A model generated the notes under the pieces. The model searched no databases and was not told the DNA's origin. It worked only from the letters and a program-made list of their open reading frames with translations. From positions 1 to 53,410 of the forward strand of contig JAAYBH010000212.1 in assembly GCA_012718935.1 (NCBI GenBank): a stretch of 53,410 nucleotides of DNA, written 5' to 3'. Made by a program: the position numbers and the translations under genes. How positions within the stretch are numbered: the stretch's first letter is position 1; each line of letters starts with the position of its first letter. Shown piece by piece: positions 36,333-48,972 of the stretch. The stretch comes from Clostridiales bacterium. GTDB lineage: Bacteria; Bacillota; Clostridia; Oscillospirales; Oscillospiraceae.

Positions 36333-37046
36333 CTAAGAAACCTTCTTGTATACAGAGCCAAAACTGTTCCAGGCTCTTGAACCACTCTCGTTTTTGCCAG
36401 GAATCAGGACGAACAGGACTTTGCCGAGTATCTGTCTTGTGTCCACCATGTCGACGATATCGCTTCGGCTGTCGGCAGATGCGTTCCTGTTGTCGCCCAT
36501 GACAAATATGCAACCCTTCGGCACCGTTTTCGGCCCGACAAAACCAAGGCTTTCATGCGTGAGTTCTCTGATGTATGGTTCAACGATCTCACGGCCGTCA
36601 ATGAAGACCTTTCCGGCATCAAAATCAAAATCGATCGTCTGCCCCTCCGTTGCAATTACGCGCTTGACAAGCGGTTTATTGTAATCGTATTTGTCATCCC
36701 TGAATACGACAATGTCGCCGTATTTCGGCGTATAGAACAGATTTGACATAATGACCGTATCCCTGTCCCGAAGCGTATTAAGCATGGAGTTGCCGTCCAC
36801 GCCGATCACTCTGCCGATGAAAACAAAAATCAGTATACCGCAGAGGATAGCCGATACGATACACTGAAGCCAGTCATACAACTCCAGCCGCGTATGGTCC
36901 TCCCGGTTTTCCTGCACATTATTTTTCTTTTCAACTGGAATCTCCGGCATGACTGCTTGAAAATCCTCGTCCAAGTCATCTTCCGATTTTAAATCAATTC
37001 CGTATTTCTCTTTAAATAACTCATAATCAAAGTCGTTGTCGTCCAT
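36333..37046 (-). CDS. lepB: signal peptidase I (paralog 1)
   Basis: VDGNSMLNTL (Ser), PLVKRVIATEGQ (Lys), VMGDNRNASADSRS. Confidence 0.94.
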   Translation of the reverse strand: MDDNDFDYELFKEKYGIDLKSEDDLDEDFQAVMPEIPVEKKNNVQENREDHTRLELYDWLQCIVSAILCGILIFVFIGRVIGVDGNSMLNTLRDRDTVIMSNLFYTPKYGDIVVFRDDKYDYNKPLVKRVIATEGQTIDFDFDAGKVFIDGREIVEPYIRELTHESLGFVGPKTVPKGCIFVMGDNRNASADSRSDIVDMVDTRQILGKVLFVLIPGKNESGSRAWNSFGSVYKKVS

Positions 37047-37149: not shown

Positions 37150-37830
37150 TTATACGGGGCCGATCCTGCTCCAGTCCCTTTTGGCGTCATGACCCTTCCC
37201 TGGTAACAGTATCAGATATACTTTGCCGAGAATGTCACGAACGTCGATCATACCGACACGGCTATCACGGCTGTCAGAGGAATTGTTGCGGTTGTCGCCC
37301 AATACAAAAACATGACCCTCCGGAACCGTCACCGGACCCTCAAAACCCATTTGAAGAGTCGTTGGCGTAGTAATGTAATCCTCTTTCAGTTCCGCTCCGT
37401 CAACTGAAACGACGCCTTTTTCAAAGTCGATATTCACAGACTGTCCGGCAGTAGCAATAACGCGTTTGACGATCGGCGTATCAAAAGCGTCTGATGTGAT
37501 AAAAACAATATCCTGATATTTTGGCGTAAAGAACAGATTTGACAGGATGACAGTATCGCCGTCCTCCAGAGTCTGCAACATAGACGTTCCCTTAATGGCG
37601 TCCACCTTGCCGACAAACACGAAAATCAAGATACCGGCGACGACGGCAGATACGATACATTGGAGCCAGTCATACAGGCTCATGCCCGGATCGACGGCTG
37701 CTTTTCGCTTATGATGCTCTGTGGGTTTCCCTGTGTCCGGCTCGCTGTCGGAGTAATTTATTGTATAATCCGCTATGAAATCGATATCAAAAGCCTCTTT
37801 TTGATCGTCCTGATACCCTTCATCCATCAT
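37150..37830 (-). CDS. lepB: signal peptidase I (paralog 2)
   Basis: IKGTSMLQTLEDGDTVI, PIVKRVIATAGQ, VLGDNRNNSSDSRDSRVG. Confidence 0.94.
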   Translation of the reverse strand: MMDEGYQDDQKEAFDIDFIADYTINYSDSEPDTGKPTEHHKRKAAVDPGMSLYDWLQCIVSAVVAGILIFVFVGKVDAIKGTSMLQTLEDGDTVILSNLFFTPKYQDIVFITSDAFDTPIVKRVIATAGQSVNIDFEKGVVSVDGAELKEDYITTPTTLQMGFEGPVTVPEGHVFVLGDNRNNSSDSRDSRVGMIDVRDILGKVYLILLPGKGHDAKRDWSRIGPV

Positions 37831-41602: not shown

Positions 41603-43474
41603 TCATTGATCCTCAACGTCATCCCCTATGAAGTCCTCATCAAATTCGAAATCAATCAACGAGGGAGCATCCGCACCTGGCTCTCCTCCGTTTTCAATTT
41701 CCCCTTTTTCTTCATGTTCATAAAATATCCTTTTTTCTTTTTTTCCGATATGCTTCGGCGTTCGAACGACAAAGCTTGCGTTCCTGCGCATATCAATCGC
41801 TTTGATAAAAGCCAGCAGTCCCCAGCACGCAACCAGGCTCGAGCCTCCTTTTGAGACAAAGGGAAACGTGACGCCTGTGAAAGGCAGAATGTCAACCGAG
41901 CCGAGCACATTCAGAATCATCTGGAAGATCAGAACAGTAACGGATGCACATGCGCCGATCACGTAAAACGAGCTGCGCACGGCACGTGAGGCGTTGATTG
42001 CATGAAATGAGAGGATAAGCAAAGCAAAAACAGCGACAGACGCAACGATCAGGCCAAGTTCCTCGCATAAAATTCCGAAGACCATATCCGTATCGGCGGC
42101 GAATATGTTCTTTAGCCATCCGTTTCCCGCACCCACGCCGAAAAGGCCGCCGCTGGCTGCCGCGGCCATCGTTCGCGTCTGCTGATAGCCGGAAGTGTTG
42201 GCATATTCCCATGCGTGTCCCCACGTGGCAAACCGGGCCGCCACATGCGGTTTGAGCGTTACGGCCATGAAACCGGCGAATCCTGCGCCGGCAACACTTA
42301 AGATCACTGTCGCCAAATCACCCGAACGTATGAAGGAAATGGCAAGGTATGCGATGAAAAAGACAAGCGCCGTACCAAAATCACCCATCAGGGCCAGCGC
42401 CATCACACAAACACCGGAGAAAGCGACAAATAAAACAAGGTTACGCCTGGCAAAAAGCCTGTCCAGCGTCGCTGCTCCGGCAAAAACAAATGAAATTTTG
42501 ACAAACTCCGACGGTTGAAAGGTGATGCCGCTAATCGTCAGCCAGTTTCTGGCGCCGAATACCGTGCCGCTCAGAAGCAGGTTGGCCCCGAGCAGAAGCA
42601 GGCCTGTGACGGCGATCGGCCATCGCAGCCTGACCGCTCTTTTCAAGTCTCTTAAAAACCAACCCATCAGAAAAAAGAATAATACCCCCGCCGTCAGTAA
42701 AGCGATTTGTTTATACAAGTCGGCCGGCGCGGAGGATGCTGCAACGCCCATCCCGATGGTGCTTAAAAAAAGTGCGATTGTCTCGACCTCAAACGCCACC
42801 CTGCGCAGGAGTCTCGTCAGCAGATAGCCAAACCATGTCAGGACGATCAAACCGGCAAAACAGACGGGGACTGCCAGGGGCAGGGCTTCATCATATGATA
42901 TACAGAGCTGCAAACAGAGGGTTATCTGAAAAAGAGTCAGAAAAAAAAGAGTTGTGAACGGCTTGACATACTTTCCGGGCTGTATCCTTTCTTCAGACTC
43001 CATGGCCTGTTCATATTTACTGATGGCGATGAATACGAGCTCGACTCCGCCCAATGTGATGATGTCGCCTGTTTTGATTTGCGCTCTTTCGGTGATCCTT
43101 TCCCCGTTGAGCATGACGCCGCCCTTTGAGTCCAGGTCATGGAGCCGCCATCGTCCTTTGACATCACGGATGACCGTTGCATGGCTGCGTGACAGTGTCG
43201 GGTACTCCATGTAGACATCGGAGGCTTTTGACCGGCCGATAATGTTCTCCCAATGATTCAATCGGATTTTAGAGCCGTTGGGCAGGCTGAGGTATCCCCA
43301 CGCTTCAAAGTCGTTTTCCTCAATCAGAAGCGACTTCACAGAACGGTAGACGATAAGGACTGCAAGAATTGGAAGGATAAACCGGATGATAAACGTAAAA
43401 TAAGAGAAAAACTCCGCTGGATTTTCCGAAATTAAAAGACGGAGCTTTTCAAGCAGCTCGCTGAGCCATTCGAT
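41603..43474 (-). CDS. TM-FHA-FtsW/RodA/SpoVE (SEDS) fusion protein, probable non-canonical ATC start
   Basis: FHA domain IIGRSKASDVYMEYPTLSRSHATVIRD; SEDS domain ADTDMVFGILCEELG, FPFVSKGGSSL; reading frame open 45 codons upstream of the track's GTG at 43339, back to ATC at 43474 preceded by AAAGGAG. Confidence 0.88.
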   Translation of the reverse strand: MEWLSELLEKLRLLISENPAEFFSYFTFIIRFILPILAVLIVYRSVKSLLIEENDFEAWGYLSLPNGSKIRLNHWENIIGRSKASDVYMEYPTLSRSHATVIRDVKGRWRLHDLDSKGGVMLNGERITERAQIKTGDIITLGGVELVFIAISKYEQAMESEERIQPGKYVKPFTTLFFLTLFQITLCLQLCISYDEALPLAVPVCFAGLIVLTWFGYLLTRLLRRVAFEVETIALFLSTIGMGVAASSAPADLYKQIALLTAGVLFFFLMGWFLRDLKRAVRLRWPIAVTGLLLLGANLLLSGTVFGARNWLTISGITFQPSEFVKISFVFAGAATLDRLFARRNLVLFVAFSGVCVMALALMGDFGTALVFFIAYLAISFIRSGDLATVILSVAGAGFAGFMAVTLKPHVAARFATWGHAWEYANTSGYQQTRTMAAAASGGLFGVGAGNGWLKNIFAADTDMVFGILCEELGLIVASVAVFALLILSFHAINASRAVRSSFYVIGACASVTVLIFQMILNVLGSVDILPFTGVTFPFVSKGGSSLVACWGLLAFIKAIDMRRNASFVVRTPKHIGKKEKRIFYEHEEKGEIENGGEPGADAPSLIDFEFDEDFIGDDVEDQ

Positions 43475-43609: not shown

Positions 43610-45670
43610 TTATTCCGCTTCGTTCAAGGCCTTCGCCTCTTCGATGATCTTTGCCTGAACGACGGCAGGAGCTTCCTCATAACGCTCAAAGCGAATTGTA
43701 AAGGAGCCTCTGCCCTGTGTCATTGAGCGAAGGTCGATGGCATAGCTCGACATCTCGCCCATCGGCACTTCCGCTTCGATAACCTGCATGCCGTCCGCAT
43801 CCAGACTCATCCCCATCGGGCTGCCGCGGCGCTTCGACAAATCTGACATGATGTCACCGGTATATGTGTCCGGAATGGATACGGTCAAATAGCCTATCGG
43901 CTCCAGGATAACAGGATTGGCCTGCGGGATGCCGTCTTTATATGCCAGCTGCGCAGCTGTTTTGAATGCCATTTCCGACGAATCGACGGGGTGATACGAA
44001 CCGTCCACAAGCGTCGCCTTCAGAAAAACCATAGGGTAACCGGCCAGAACACCCTTCTGGATACTGTCGCGAAGACCCTTTTCAACGGCGGGGAAAAAGT
44101 TTTTCGGAACGCTGCCGCCGAAAACATTCTCAGCAAAAATGAGATCCTCTTCTTCACCGGGCTCAAAATCGATAACGACGTCGCCAAACTGGCCATGACC
44201 GCCGGACTGCTTTTTGTGGCGACCCCTGACCTGTACTTTTTTGCGGATCTTTTCGCGGTACGCAACGCGGGCCGGTGACAGTACGACCTCGACGCCGAAC
44301 TTGTCCTTCAATTTGGAACAGAGCACATCCAGCTGAATGTCTCCCGCACCTGACAGGACCATCTGCTTCGTCTCGGCGTTATTGAAGACGCTGAAGGTTT
44401 GATCCTCCTCACCGAGCCTTGCCAAACCGGAGGCGATCTTTTCCTCCTGACCCTTTGTCTTGGGCGCAATCGCCATGGAATAGCACGGTGGCGCAAATTC
44501 AATCCCCTGTGCGGTAACGGGCTTTTTGGGATCAGCCAGCGTGTCGGCCGTCTTTGTGTCGGATAGCTTGGAAACAGCGCCGATATCGCCGCAGATAACT
44601 TCCTTTATCTCAACGCTCTTTTTCCCCTGCATCTTAAAAATATGGCCGATCTTTTCCTGTGACCCGGTTCTCGAATTGATAAGAGACATATCTGCTGCAA
44701 CCTTGCCGGACAGGACTTTGAAATAGCTGAACTTGCCATACTGGTCGGAGACCGTCTTATACACAATGGCTACCGTCGATCCGTTCGGATCGGCTGCGAT
44801 GACAGTGTCCTCTGAGCTGATTTCCTTTCGGCCGTCAAGGGGCGACGGGAACAGGTTGATAACGGCGTCCAGAAGCGGCAGCGTTCCGAGTCCGGTGAGC
44901 GCGCAGCCACAGAAAACGGGATACAGCGTCCGATCCTTCACACCGACCTTTAAGCCTGTAATGACTTCATCAACAGTAAACTGTTCTCCGGAGAAATACT
45001 TCTCCATGAGCTCCTCGCTCGTTTCAGCGACGCTTTCATTGACTGCCGTATAAAGTGTTTCAAGCTCGGATTTCATACTGTCGGGAATCGGAATCTCTTT
45101 TGTTTTTCCGCCCTCAACCGTAAAAGCTTTCCTGTTGATCAGATCAATCAGGCCTTCAACCTTTCCTGCGGCATTTTTAATCGGCGCAATCATCGGACAG
45201 ACAGATGTGCCGTATTTATCGCGAAGCGCGCTGTAAACGGCCTCGTAGTTGCCGTTTTCCTCATCAATTTTCGAAACGTAGATAGCACGCGGGAGCTTCT
45301 GCTTCTCGAGATATTTCCAGGCCTTTTCAAGGCCGACGGTAATACCGTCCTTCGCGCCGCAGACAATGATCCCGGCATCGGCGACACGGAGTGCCTCAGC
45401 AACCTCACCCGCGAAATCAAAAAAACCCGGCGTGTCAAGAATATTAATCTTGCAGTCTCTGTATTCAGAATACATCGTCGCCAGTGATATCGAAATCTGG
45501 CGTTTGATCTCCTCTGCCTCAGAATCTCCGACGGTATTACCGTCAACAATCCTGCCGAGCCTGTCCGTCTGGCCTGTTAAAAACAGCATGCTCTCGGCAA
45601 GACTTGTTTTTCCATTGCTCCCATGTCCCAGAAGAGCAATATTCCGGATTTTATCAGTGGCATAGGTCAT
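43610..45670 (-). CDS. elongation factor G-like GTPase (atypical)
   Basis: P-loop GHGSNGKTSLAESML, switch II DTPGFFDF, SKID; EF-G domains II-V (RMTQGRGSFTIRFERYEEAP). Confidence 0.93.
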   Translation of the reverse strand: MTYATDKIRNIALLGHGSNGKTSLAESMLFLTGQTDRLGRIVDGNTVGDSEAEEIKRQISISLATMYSEYRDCKINILDTPGFFDFAGEVAEALRVADAGIIVCGAKDGITVGLEKAWKYLEKQKLPRAIYVSKIDEENGNYEAVYSALRDKYGTSVCPMIAPIKNAAGKVEGLIDLINRKAFTVEGGKTKEIPIPDSMKSELETLYTAVNESVAETSEELMEKYFSGEQFTVDEVITGLKVGVKDRTLYPVFCGCALTGLGTLPLLDAVINLFPSPLDGRKEISSEDTVIAADPNGSTVAIVYKTVSDQYGKFSYFKVLSGKVAADMSLINSRTGSQEKIGHIFKMQGKKSVEIKEVICGDIGAVSKLSDTKTADTLADPKKPVTAQGIEFAPPCYSMAIAPKTKGQEEKIASGLARLGEEDQTFSVFNNAETKQMVLSGAGDIQLDVLCSKLKDKFGVEVVLSPARVAYREKIRKKVQVRGRHKKQSGGHGQFGDVVIDFEPGEEEDLIFAENVFGGSVPKNFFPAVEKGLRDSIQKGVLAGYPMVFLKATLVDGSYHPVDSSEMAFKTAAQLAYKDGIPQANPVILEPIGYLTVSIPDTYTGDIMSDLSKRRGSPMGMSLDADGMQVIEAEVPMGEMSSYAIDLRSMTQGRGSFTIRFERYEEAPAVVQAKIIEEAKALNEAE

Positions 45671-45791: not shown

Positions 45792-48110
45792 TTACTGCCT
45801 GTATCTGGCAAAACCGCAAATAATCAATGTCACAACAAGCATCGAAAGCATATAGAGAAGAAGATTGCCGGCGCGCGCGGCAGAAAATGACCCAGCCCAG
45901 CTGATTATAAACATAATAAGCATACCGGCGCAGGCCGACAGGATGGAGAAGACAGTCGCAACGAGTGCTGTTGTCCGCAGGCGTCTTCCGCCTGTGATTG
46001 ACTCAACATACGGGCCCATGCCTTCACGAATGAGAATAGCCGAAACACGCTTGGCCTCCTGCTTGGCGTTATCGGAAAGCTCATATGTATTCTGAATCGG
46101 GATATTCTCCACATCCTTGACGGGAACTTTGAATTTCTGTTCCAGCATCACAGGTGTAATGTTGAAATCCCTGACGGCAAAAAACAGCTTGACACGATAA
46201 CGCAGTACGGATATCAACGCATTTTGCACCGACTTTATCGGCACATAATTGATGGCAAAAACAGCAATCAGCCTTTTGTTGACGGCAGTAAATATGGCGT
46301 TTTTCATATTAAGGCTGGTCGGTATTCTGATCCCCATCAGATTCATGAATGCCGCCGAGCCTGTGATGACGCGCTCCCCCTTGATAATGCCGCCGATCCC
46401 GCCTTCATAGCATGCGAATTCTTCAACTCGAATCAAGTTCAGCGCCTGCTTGCCGAGCTGCTCTGAAAACAGCTTGGCAAGGCCAGAATTTGATGCGATG
46501 ATCAAGCTTCCCGTGTACCGAAGGGCTTTTTCAGGCTGTACCTCCTCAAATATTTTAATGCCTGCTATTGAGACGGTACCCGGAGGAAAGATATCCTCAT
46601 CGGTGATGCTCACGCCGTCCGTATGATACAGGTCATCCGCACCACCCCAGCCAGCGATTGCGGCGCCCGACTGCCGCGCCCTTCTGGACACGGCGCTGAA
46701 GGGTACGGAGTAGGCAAATACTGCCGTGAACGGCGCTGCCGCCGACATGATGGCCGCGAAATAATGCCAAAAGTAATGTGCGCGGCCATGGCCGACAGAC
46801 GCGTAAAAGGCAAGGACCGCCGAGATGACGATCAGAACGGGTGTCGCATACTTATAAGTAATTTCACTGATATCGGCCTGAACCAGATTATTATAAAAGC
46901 CCTCTGTGCGGCCGGTAACTTTTTTTATGATCGTACTGTCCAGCGCGCCGCACATTTCGGCAATAACGCCGGACGGCATCGTTGTGGCCTGCGCAGTTTT
47001 CATAGTTTCCGTCAGCGCTCTGTAATAAACCTTTTCCGCCCAAAGCGTAAAGGTCAGAGAAAAAGCCGATATGACGCAGTACGGCATTCCAACCGCCGTG
47101 TCTTGATTGTAAATGCTGAATGCTGCCGCCGTGATCGTCGCAAGGCAGGAAAAGAGGTTGAGCGTCTCAATGTTGGGCCCGCGTCTGATTATACTCGTAA
47201 AGCCGTCCGATAGCTTGTCAATGCTCAGCATCATAACGACAAACAAGAAAATCAGCAGAATACCGGCAGACAATATCTTATTCTGTCCCATCCCAAAGGG
47301 CAGCTGGGCGCCGGATTCAAAAACAAGCGTCAGAACCGCCATAACAACGGTCAGGATGAGGCTTGCGAAGCTTCTGACTGAATAAGAGTTGCAGCGCTCG
47401 GCGAATCTTTTCGTCGCTTCGCGGTAATCCGGTTCTTCGTAAAATTCCTCTTCTGCAACGGGTACGGATGACTCTGTGATCACCTCATCGTTGTAAATCG
47501 CTTCGTCGTCAGTTTTCGCATTTCTGCTGAATATGCCGAATATCTTTCGAAGTGATTTATTACTGTCCTCTTCAAGCCGGGTTTGTTTTTCGATGGCTGC
47601 GCTTACTTCCCTACCGATATCGTTAAGGTATCCATTGCTTTCGGTATCGGCCTTTTCACGGTATCTTTGAAACCTGATGACCTCCTGGTCCATCCCCACG
47701 GACACTTCGGCTTCTCTTATGGCGGTTTTGTCTTCTTCTGCGCGAAACAATTTGTCTTGTTCGTCTGATATCTCATCCTCACCGGGCAGAACGGCTGTTT
47801 TTCCGCTCGCGCCGTTATTTTTGGGCATCGCGCCGGACGACGCCTGTGTCCCGGCTGTCTGACCTCCTGCAACCTCCATGACGATCCTGTCTGTTTTTTC
47901 CTGCAGGACGGAAGGCGGTGTTCTCTTATCACCGGCAATATATGCTGTTCCCTTATACTCTGCCAGAATAGATTCAAGAGAGTAGCCGTCCGGTATTGAG
48001 ACGCCGTCGCCTTCATTTTCGCTGAGCAAACGGGTTTTCATTCCTTCTTCAGATGGCGGCGCGCTGACAAATAAATCGCTTGTTTCCGTATATTGCTGAT
48101 CGCGTGCCAA
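45792..48110 (-). CDS. P-type-ATPase-like multi-TM protein with apparently degenerate catalytic site
   Basis: Long acidic/low-complexity N-terminus, ~8 TM; APFTAVFAYSVPFSAVSRRARQSGAAIAGWGGADDLYHTDGVSIT aligns by eye with P1B CPC...GxxIKGG...DKTGT; TTG start at 48110 preceded by AGGGGG (GTG at 48119 is the track start). Confidence 0.7.
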   Translation of the reverse strand: MARDQQYTETSDLFVSAPPSEEGMKTRLLSENEGDGVSIPDGYSLESILAEYKGTAYIAGDKRTPPSVLQEKTDRIVMEVAGGQTAGTQASSGAMPKNNGASGKTAVLPGEDEISDEQDKLFRAEEDKTAIREAEVSVGMDQEVIRFQRYREKADTESNGYLNDIGREVSAAIEKQTRLEEDSNKSLRKIFGIFSRNAKTDDEAIYNDEVITESSVPVAEEEFYEEPDYREATKRFAERCNSYSVRSFASLILTVVMAVLTLVFESGAQLPFGMGQNKILSAGILLIFLFVVMMLSIDKLSDGFTSIIRRGPNIETLNLFSCLATITAAAFSIYNQDTAVGMPYCVISAFSLTFTLWAEKVYYRALTETMKTAQATTMPSGVIAEMCGALDSTIIKKVTGRTEGFYNNLVQADISEITYKYATPVLIVISAVLAFYASVGHGRAHYFWHYFAAIMSAAAPFTAVFAYSVPFSAVSRRARQSGAAIAGWGGADDLYHTDGVSITDEDIFPPGTVSIAGIKIFEEVQPEKALRYTGSLIIASNSGLAKLFSEQLGKQALNLIRVEEFACYEGGIGGIIKGERVITGSAAFMNLMGIRIPTSLNMKNAIFTAVNKRLIAVFAINYVPIKSVQNALISVLRYRVKLFFAVRDFNITPVMLEQKFKVPVKDVENIPIQNTYELSDNAKQEAKRVSAILIREGMGPYVESITGGRRLRTTALVATVFSILSACAGMLIMFIISWAGSFSAARAGNLLLYMLSMLVVTLIICGFARYRQ

Positions 48111-48132
48111 AGACGTCACCCCCTACATATAT

Positions 48133-48972
48133 CTATTTTCCGGACATGCTTCTCTGTCTCAGCGCTTCATACATAATAACAGAAGCTGAAACAGAAGCGT
48201 TAAGCGATGATATTTTGCCGACCATTGGAATACGAACTCTGAAATCACAGTTTTCGAGTATAAGCCGGCTGAGCCCCGCGCCTTCCGAACCGATGACCAA
48301 GGCGGCAGGTCCGGTCAGGTCTGTCTGCCAGATGTGGCTCTCGCCGTCGGCATCGGCTCCGTAAACCCACACGCCGGCTTTCTTCAGTTCGCCAAGGGCT
48401 GCTGTTAAATTTGATACTCTTGCAACGGCAAGGTATTCCACGGCTCCCGCCGATGTTTTTGAGACCACCGCCGTCATTCCGGCGCTTCTTCTCTTTGGGA
48501 TGATAATCCCATGCGCCCCCGTACACTCTGCCGTTCTGATGATCGCACCAAGATTATGCGGATCTGATATCTCATCACAAACGATGATGAGGGGCTGTTC
48601 GTTCCTGTCTTTTGCTGTCTGAAGGATATCCTCAATGCTCACATACGCTTTTACGGAGGCCAGCGCAATAACACCCTGGTGATTCTTCGTGACGCTCATC
48701 GCGTCAAGCTTTCTCCTGTCTGCCTCCACGACGACGGTCCCCGCCTGACGGGCTTTTGACGCAATATGTCCGAGAGATGCGTCCGTCTCACCCTTGGCGA
48801 TATAAATTTTATCAATCGGCCTTCCGGCTCGAAGCGCTTCAATAACAGCGTTCCTGCCTTCGACAATGCCTTCCGACCTGTCTGCGTCAGCCTCCGAGGA
48901 TTCCTCCCGGCTGCGGTATGGATCCATATGGCGCGGAACCGGCTTCCTTTTTCTGAATGTGCCGTCGTCCAT
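48133..48972 (-). CDS. rlmB: 23S rRNA (guanosine(2251)-2'-O)-methyltransferase RlmB
   Basis: IVEGRNAVIEALRAGRPIDKIYIAKG; DEISDPHNLGAIIRTAECTGAHGIIIPKRRS; IGSEGAGLSRLILENCDFRVRIPMVGKISSLNASVSASVIMYE. Confidence 0.95.
   Translation of the reverse strand: MDDGTFRKRKPVPRHMDPYRSREESSEADADRSEGIVEGRNAVIEALRAGRPIDKIYIAKGETDASLGHIASKARQAGTVVVEADRRKLDAMSVTKNHQGVIALASVKAYVSIEDILQTAKDRNEQPLIIVCDEISDPHNLGAIIRTAECTGAHGIIIPKRRSAGMTAVVSKTSAGAVEYLAVARVSNLTAALGELKKAGVWVYGADADGESHIWQTDLTGPAALVIGSEGAGLSRLILENCDFRVRIPMVGKISSLNASVSASVIMYEALRQRSMSGK

Follow-up and report, generated by a model that had tools for sequence, protein, structure and literature searches.

The P-type ATPase superfamily is marked by an invariant aspartate in the DKTGT motif, which is autophosphorylated (PMC10654040). 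In the N domain of its P1B members, a glutamate contacts the adenine and a histidine contacts the phosphate (PMC5089723). The nearest precedent for the protein described here comes from Plasmodium, whose guanylyl cyclase beta contains a degenerate P4-ATPase domain (PMC6592433), and P-type ATPases are not mentioned in a review of pseudoenzymes (PMC10211241). No described bacterial pseudo-P-type ATPase was found in the literature searched, which comprised papers outside subscription access. The 53,410-nucleotide stretch of DNA analysed here (the window) carries a gene whose product is identified, by descent and by predicted fold, as a homologue of the P1B (CopA-type) ATPases. We consider it very probable that this protein is a pseudo-P1B-ATPase and that it is catalytically dead.

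The gene and its predicted P1B fold

The whole gene, stop codon included, occupies positions 45792..48119 on the minus strand if translation begins at the GTG at 48119 (775 aa), or 45792-48110 if it begins at the TTG at 48110 (772 aa). The TTG is probably the likelier start because a ribosome-binding site (AGGGGGTGA) lies 5 nt upstream of it and the Met of the homologs lines up with the TTG residue in the alignment. This agrees with the start given in the first-pass annotation, which had described a multi-TM protein of ~770 aa; the ORF is real, and AlphaFold2 (AF2) predicts eight membrane helices for its product. The two neighbours named at that time were also found. The gene for RlmB, a SpoU family rRNA 2'-O-methyltransferase (48133..48972, minus strand; Pfam), lies 13-22 nt upstream, and a 686-aa EF-G-like GTPase that contains every EF-G domain (43610..45670, minus strand; Pfam) lies downstream.

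Elsewhere in the window, one ORF at 41603-43339 (minus strand) fuses FHA to an FtsW/RodA/SpoVE-type protein (Pfam FHA 1.4e-16, FTSW 4.1e-50), and this arrangement is likewise present near the Sporobacter locus and in genome G242. Two adjacent and similar ORFs at 36333-37046 and 37150-37830 (minus strand), with charged N-termini followed by LYDWLQCIVSA, both match the same place in L057 and look by eye like paralogous signal peptidases.

Searches of Pfam, NCBIfam and the PDB with the single sequence were weak and a family profile was therefore required. The single sequence matched no Pfam family; its NCBIfam match to CopA (residues 513-600) had E 5e-4 and its PDB match to CopB (3skx) E 0.017. 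The profile matched Legionella CopA (LpCopA) at E 3.6e-31. This match falls into three colinear segments that cover the initial membrane helices, the stretch from M3 to the P domain, and M5-M6, the last of which is non-significant taken alone; the profile also matched ATP7B at E 1.6e-9. The likeness to CopA is above chance since the single sequence matches NCBIfam CopA and the profile matches LpCopA colinearly. The family is not represented above cut-off in Pfam or NCBIfam and no fold had been assigned to it, which answers the earlier concern that it might already be characterised with another fold. As it falls below these cut-offs, its members are presumably labelled 'hypothetical' in annotations.

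The AF2 model of the full protein, built on a 37-row alignment, has a pLDDT of 81.5 and a pTM of 0.72, and the leading Foldseek matches in the PDB are P1B pumps, the best being 4bbj at E 1.3e-17. Over the full length the TM-scores are modest at 0.3-0.5, which is to be expected given that 230 residues are disordered and the domains are mobile. A separate model of the P and N domains (pLDDT 84.6) matched CopA 3a1d at E 2.7e-9. Superposition of its N domain on those of HMA6/HMA8 gave 2.6-3.1 A (TMt ~0.75), so the P-type scaffold which the first-pass annotation took to be retained is recovered as a predicted fold in the region that it named. Common descent with the P-type superfamily is supported by both the LpCopA profile match and the Foldseek match to 4bbj. 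The eight predicted membrane helices, with MA and MB among them, and the N-domain fold are those of the P1B class.

Loss of the catalytic and metal-site motifs

All the protein features given below are encoded on the minus strand. Four membrane helices (MA, MB, M1 and M2; residues 232-376, 46992..47426) were placed by AF2 and by the first HMMER domain against LpCopA. In the AF2 model they span residues 232-269, 281-311, 317-338 and 348-376, and MB is kinked with a conserved G306. They are followed by an A-domain remnant (residues 377-416, 46872..46991), a beta hairpin of ~40 residues in the model and alignment. TGES is missing from it as had been noted earlier; the aligned TGES columns are not conserved in the family, and the string occurs somewhere in the protein in 2 of 102 family ORFs. 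M3 and M4 (residues 417-484, 46668..46871; AF2 and HMMER) hold the position of the CPC metal site, which the alignment shows to be A462-P463-F464 (46728..46736). The Cys pair is lost as proposed, and the SAAAPF.. stretch that had been likened to the TM and phosphorylation region is located at TM4. Among the 90 non-redundant, aligned members that make up our motif table, the first Cys is kept in 5 and the M4 proline in 58, and the MB glycine is also kept. In M5 and M6 (residues 698-775, 45795..46028) the Tyr-Asn metal ligands of M5 are lost and the Met-Ser ligands of M6 are not conserved.

The first half of the P domain (residues 485-523, 46551..46667; placed by alignment) is the most conserved segment of the family and corresponds to the old active site, now rebuilt to read (T)DxD(L/I)FPPG and accompanied by RDFN further along. 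DKTGTLTEG has become T506-DEDIFPPG514 (46578..46604). The first-pass annotation had set DKTGT against HTDGV, but T506-DEDI, seven residues downstream of HTDGV, aligns with the motif without gaps in both HMMER and MAFFT. Across the 90 members the site reads T/D/S/R followed by D, any residue, D/E and L/I, and KTGT is lost in every one. Position 506 is T in 30 members and D in 18. The claim that the phospho-acceptor Asp is replaced therefore stands for the window's protein and needs qualifying for the family as a whole, whereas loss of KTGT and deletion of GDGxND do hold in all 90. The 18 members with Asp, none of which has KTGT, fall mostly in one clade, with seven changes on the tree. This Asp may be a retained ancestral residue or a reversal, and the sequences of these clades leave room for some residual chemistry.

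The N domain (residues 524-606, 46302..46550) contains the GGIGGIIKG..VITGSAAFM segment for which an N-domain resemblance had been suggested. Its HP motif is lost, the His being replaced by S/G/C/T and others, and the adenine-contacting Glu has mostly given way to hydrophobics; the pocket glycines G574 and G587 are kept in 88-89 of 90 members. The strand-helix segment bearing GDGxND is deleted from the second half of the P domain (residues 607-697, 46029..46301) and is an alignment gap in 90/90, in agreement with the earlier remark that the string is absent from the window's protein. The former TGDN region now reads R650-D651-F652-N653 (46161..46172), with D651 present in 83/90, and the FFAVRDFN stretch that had been compared with the P domain is indeed located there. 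Neither DKTGT nor GDGxND occurs as a string in any of the 102 family ORFs. Among the weaker matches from the same searches, the 13 whose motifs were read, all from genomes of the order, are canonical and carry DKTGT in 13/13. Over the 90 aligned sequences, then, the motifs for phosphorylation, Mg2+ binding, ATP-phosphate contact, dephosphorylation and the metal site are lost or deleted.

Distribution and descent within the order

The order, Oscillospirales, includes many gut bacteria. A protein search recovered relatives from 356 of the 394 genomes of the order that were sampled, almost always in open frames. One relative, from Sporobacter termitidis (58% identity), puts the window near Oscillospiraceae, and the name of the order follows from this placement. 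The family was found in none of ~570 sampled genomes from other orders of the class and phylum. With a 28-row profile, all 12 genomes of the order in the class sample matched at E 5.4e-93 or better, and the best of the 279 genomes outside the order reached E 2.8e-32 over columns 382-653 only. In the phylum sample nothing outside the order matched at E 1e-33 or lower.

In 79 of 80 loci rlmB is the immediate upstream gene and is on the same strand; the EF-G-like gene is a less constant neighbour, adjoining in 33 of 84. The linkage to rlmB gives no clear functional hint and may be merely an old operon. Absence of the family probably reflects, for the most part, assembly gaps in which the locus was not assembled, because 9 of the 11 matchless genomes examined also have no detectable rlmB, while rlmB is near a contig edge in one of the other two and a contig ends inside a peptide-carrying ORF in the other. 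Assemblies G275, G104, G090 and G063 are rated 97-100% complete and have neither rlmB nor the family gene, whether through an unassembled locus or through true joint loss.

A single branch (SH-aLRT 100, length 1.75) splits the family from the canonical pumps on the tree, where long branches limit finer claims. Rows inside the family branch group largely by taxonomic family, a pattern that favours a single conversion with vertical inheritance thereafter.

Constraint, possible roles and described systems

The invariant or near-invariant residues are D509, P512, G587, Y625, G574 and D651. Core dN/dS between close pairs is 0.025-0.22; the dN/dS check proposed in the first-pass annotation thus gives purifying selection, and the gene is not decaying. 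Together with the predicted fold and the motif loss, this supports its view of a pseudoenzyme on a P-type scaffold. That the gene is instead a decaying copper-pump pseudogene would fit the loss of all catalytic motifs, but it is refuted, with next to no probability left to it, by the matches in 356/394 genomes of the order in nearly always open frames, the core dN/dS, the rlmB synteny in 79/80 loci and the new invariant residues that are specific to the family.

The N-terminal tail (residues 4-231, 47427..48110) is disordered, with pLDDT mostly <50, and it stands in place of the HMA metal-binding domains that are usual in CopA. Its acidic character, as described earlier, is seen in the count of 49 D/E against 26 K/R in 232 aa. 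The tail contains the peptide LESILAEY (residues 48-55, 47955..47978), and the pattern LExILAE(F/Y) is recognisable in 59 of the 82 members with an N-terminus, being missing or unrecognisable in several divergent ones. Its strict form is found in 14 of 20 relatives, with one or two occurrences per genome, and in the window's genome it is confined to this gene. The idea of a common adaptor motif is unsupported, as there are two unrelated matches in 396 ORFs and about one per genome in the relatives; an earlier peptide pattern was found in three places outside the window in its own genome, none of them related-looking. Six divergent members (L082, L083, L085, L086, L074 and L076) have N-tails of ~500-750 residues, and no Pfam domains were found in those tested.

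The reading we prefer overall, and regard as rather probable, is that of a membrane-anchored receptor or scaffold derived from a dead copper pump. Catalysis would have been lost from a CopA-type pump in a single event that preceded the diversification of the order, and the protein would then have been kept for a non-pumping job in which it neither hydrolyses ATP nor pumps. The eight membrane helices would hold a cytoplasmic P/N platform whose pose might be fixed or slowly switching since the protein no longer has the A domain to drive the cycle. The rebuilt site is a putative new site for an ion, a small ligand or a peptide, and the long acidic tail may be a tether, its LExILAE(F/Y) peptide bringing a partner from the cytosol to the membrane. 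We give this receptor or scaffold mechanism about an even chance.

Other functions can be set against these features. The protein might be a ligand sensor in which a nucleotide or ion binds to the N domain or the rebuilt P pocket, with the membrane part relaying the signal to a partner or gating a passive route. The kept pocket glycines and the conserved acidic DxD and RDFN are in its favour, but the adenine-contacting Glu and phosphate-contacting His (PMC5089723) are replaced and the GDGxND metal ligands are deleted, and we consider it unlikely. The eight-helix membrane domain, the M4 proline (58/90) and the MB glycine would suit a protein that uses the former transport path as a passive channel for metals or ions, or for storing metal; this is highly improbable given that the CPC cysteines, M5 Tyr-Asn and M6 Met-Ser are not conserved and that there is no HMA domain. 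Slightly less probable still is an active enzyme, P-type or HAD phosphatase, with its nucleophile shifted to D507 or D509 in an HAD-like DxD. Most members do have DxD/DxE after the first P-domain strand, D651 is conserved, and pseudoenzymes with migrated catalytic residues exist (PMC10211241), yet the alignment is gapless on both sides and puts T506 at the nucleophile position, leaving the DxD-like string one residue off the register. The motif III Lys is not conserved, every member has a deletion of the motif IV carboxylates, and the HAD phosphatase was rejected on this motif loss.

The whole order keeps a descendant of a pump without the pump chemistry, in one conserved neighbourhood and under selection, which suggests that the pump fold has been reused for an undescribed non-pumping job and makes the protein a clean test of what this fold can do other than pump. 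The fuller claim, on which our judgement is evenly balanced, is that a P-type fold, in a single conversion at the root of the order, became a core-genome, never-pumping receptor or scaffold whose new ligand site occupies the former phosphorylation pocket, which would make this the first pseudo-P-type-ATPase family to be described in bacteria.

With the CopA-type Cu+ P1B-1-ATPases (LpCopA 3rfu/4bbj, ATP7B and AfCopA) the family shares the eight-helix topology, the kinked MB, the proline-broken M4, the P and N domain folds and a colinear sequence match. It differs in having no phospho-acceptor motif, GDGxND, TGES, HP or CPC, in its reduced A domain and in the disordered tail that takes the place of the HMA domain. 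A P-type fold with decayed signature motifs is also found in Plasmodium guanylyl cyclase beta, but that protein is a eukaryotic P4 type fused to a cyclase whereas the present family is free-standing, bacterial, of P1B type and order-wide. With pseudoenzymes that act as scaffolds or allosteric regulators (PMC10211241), it has in common the loss of motifs, the conserved fold and the movement of constraint to a new site.
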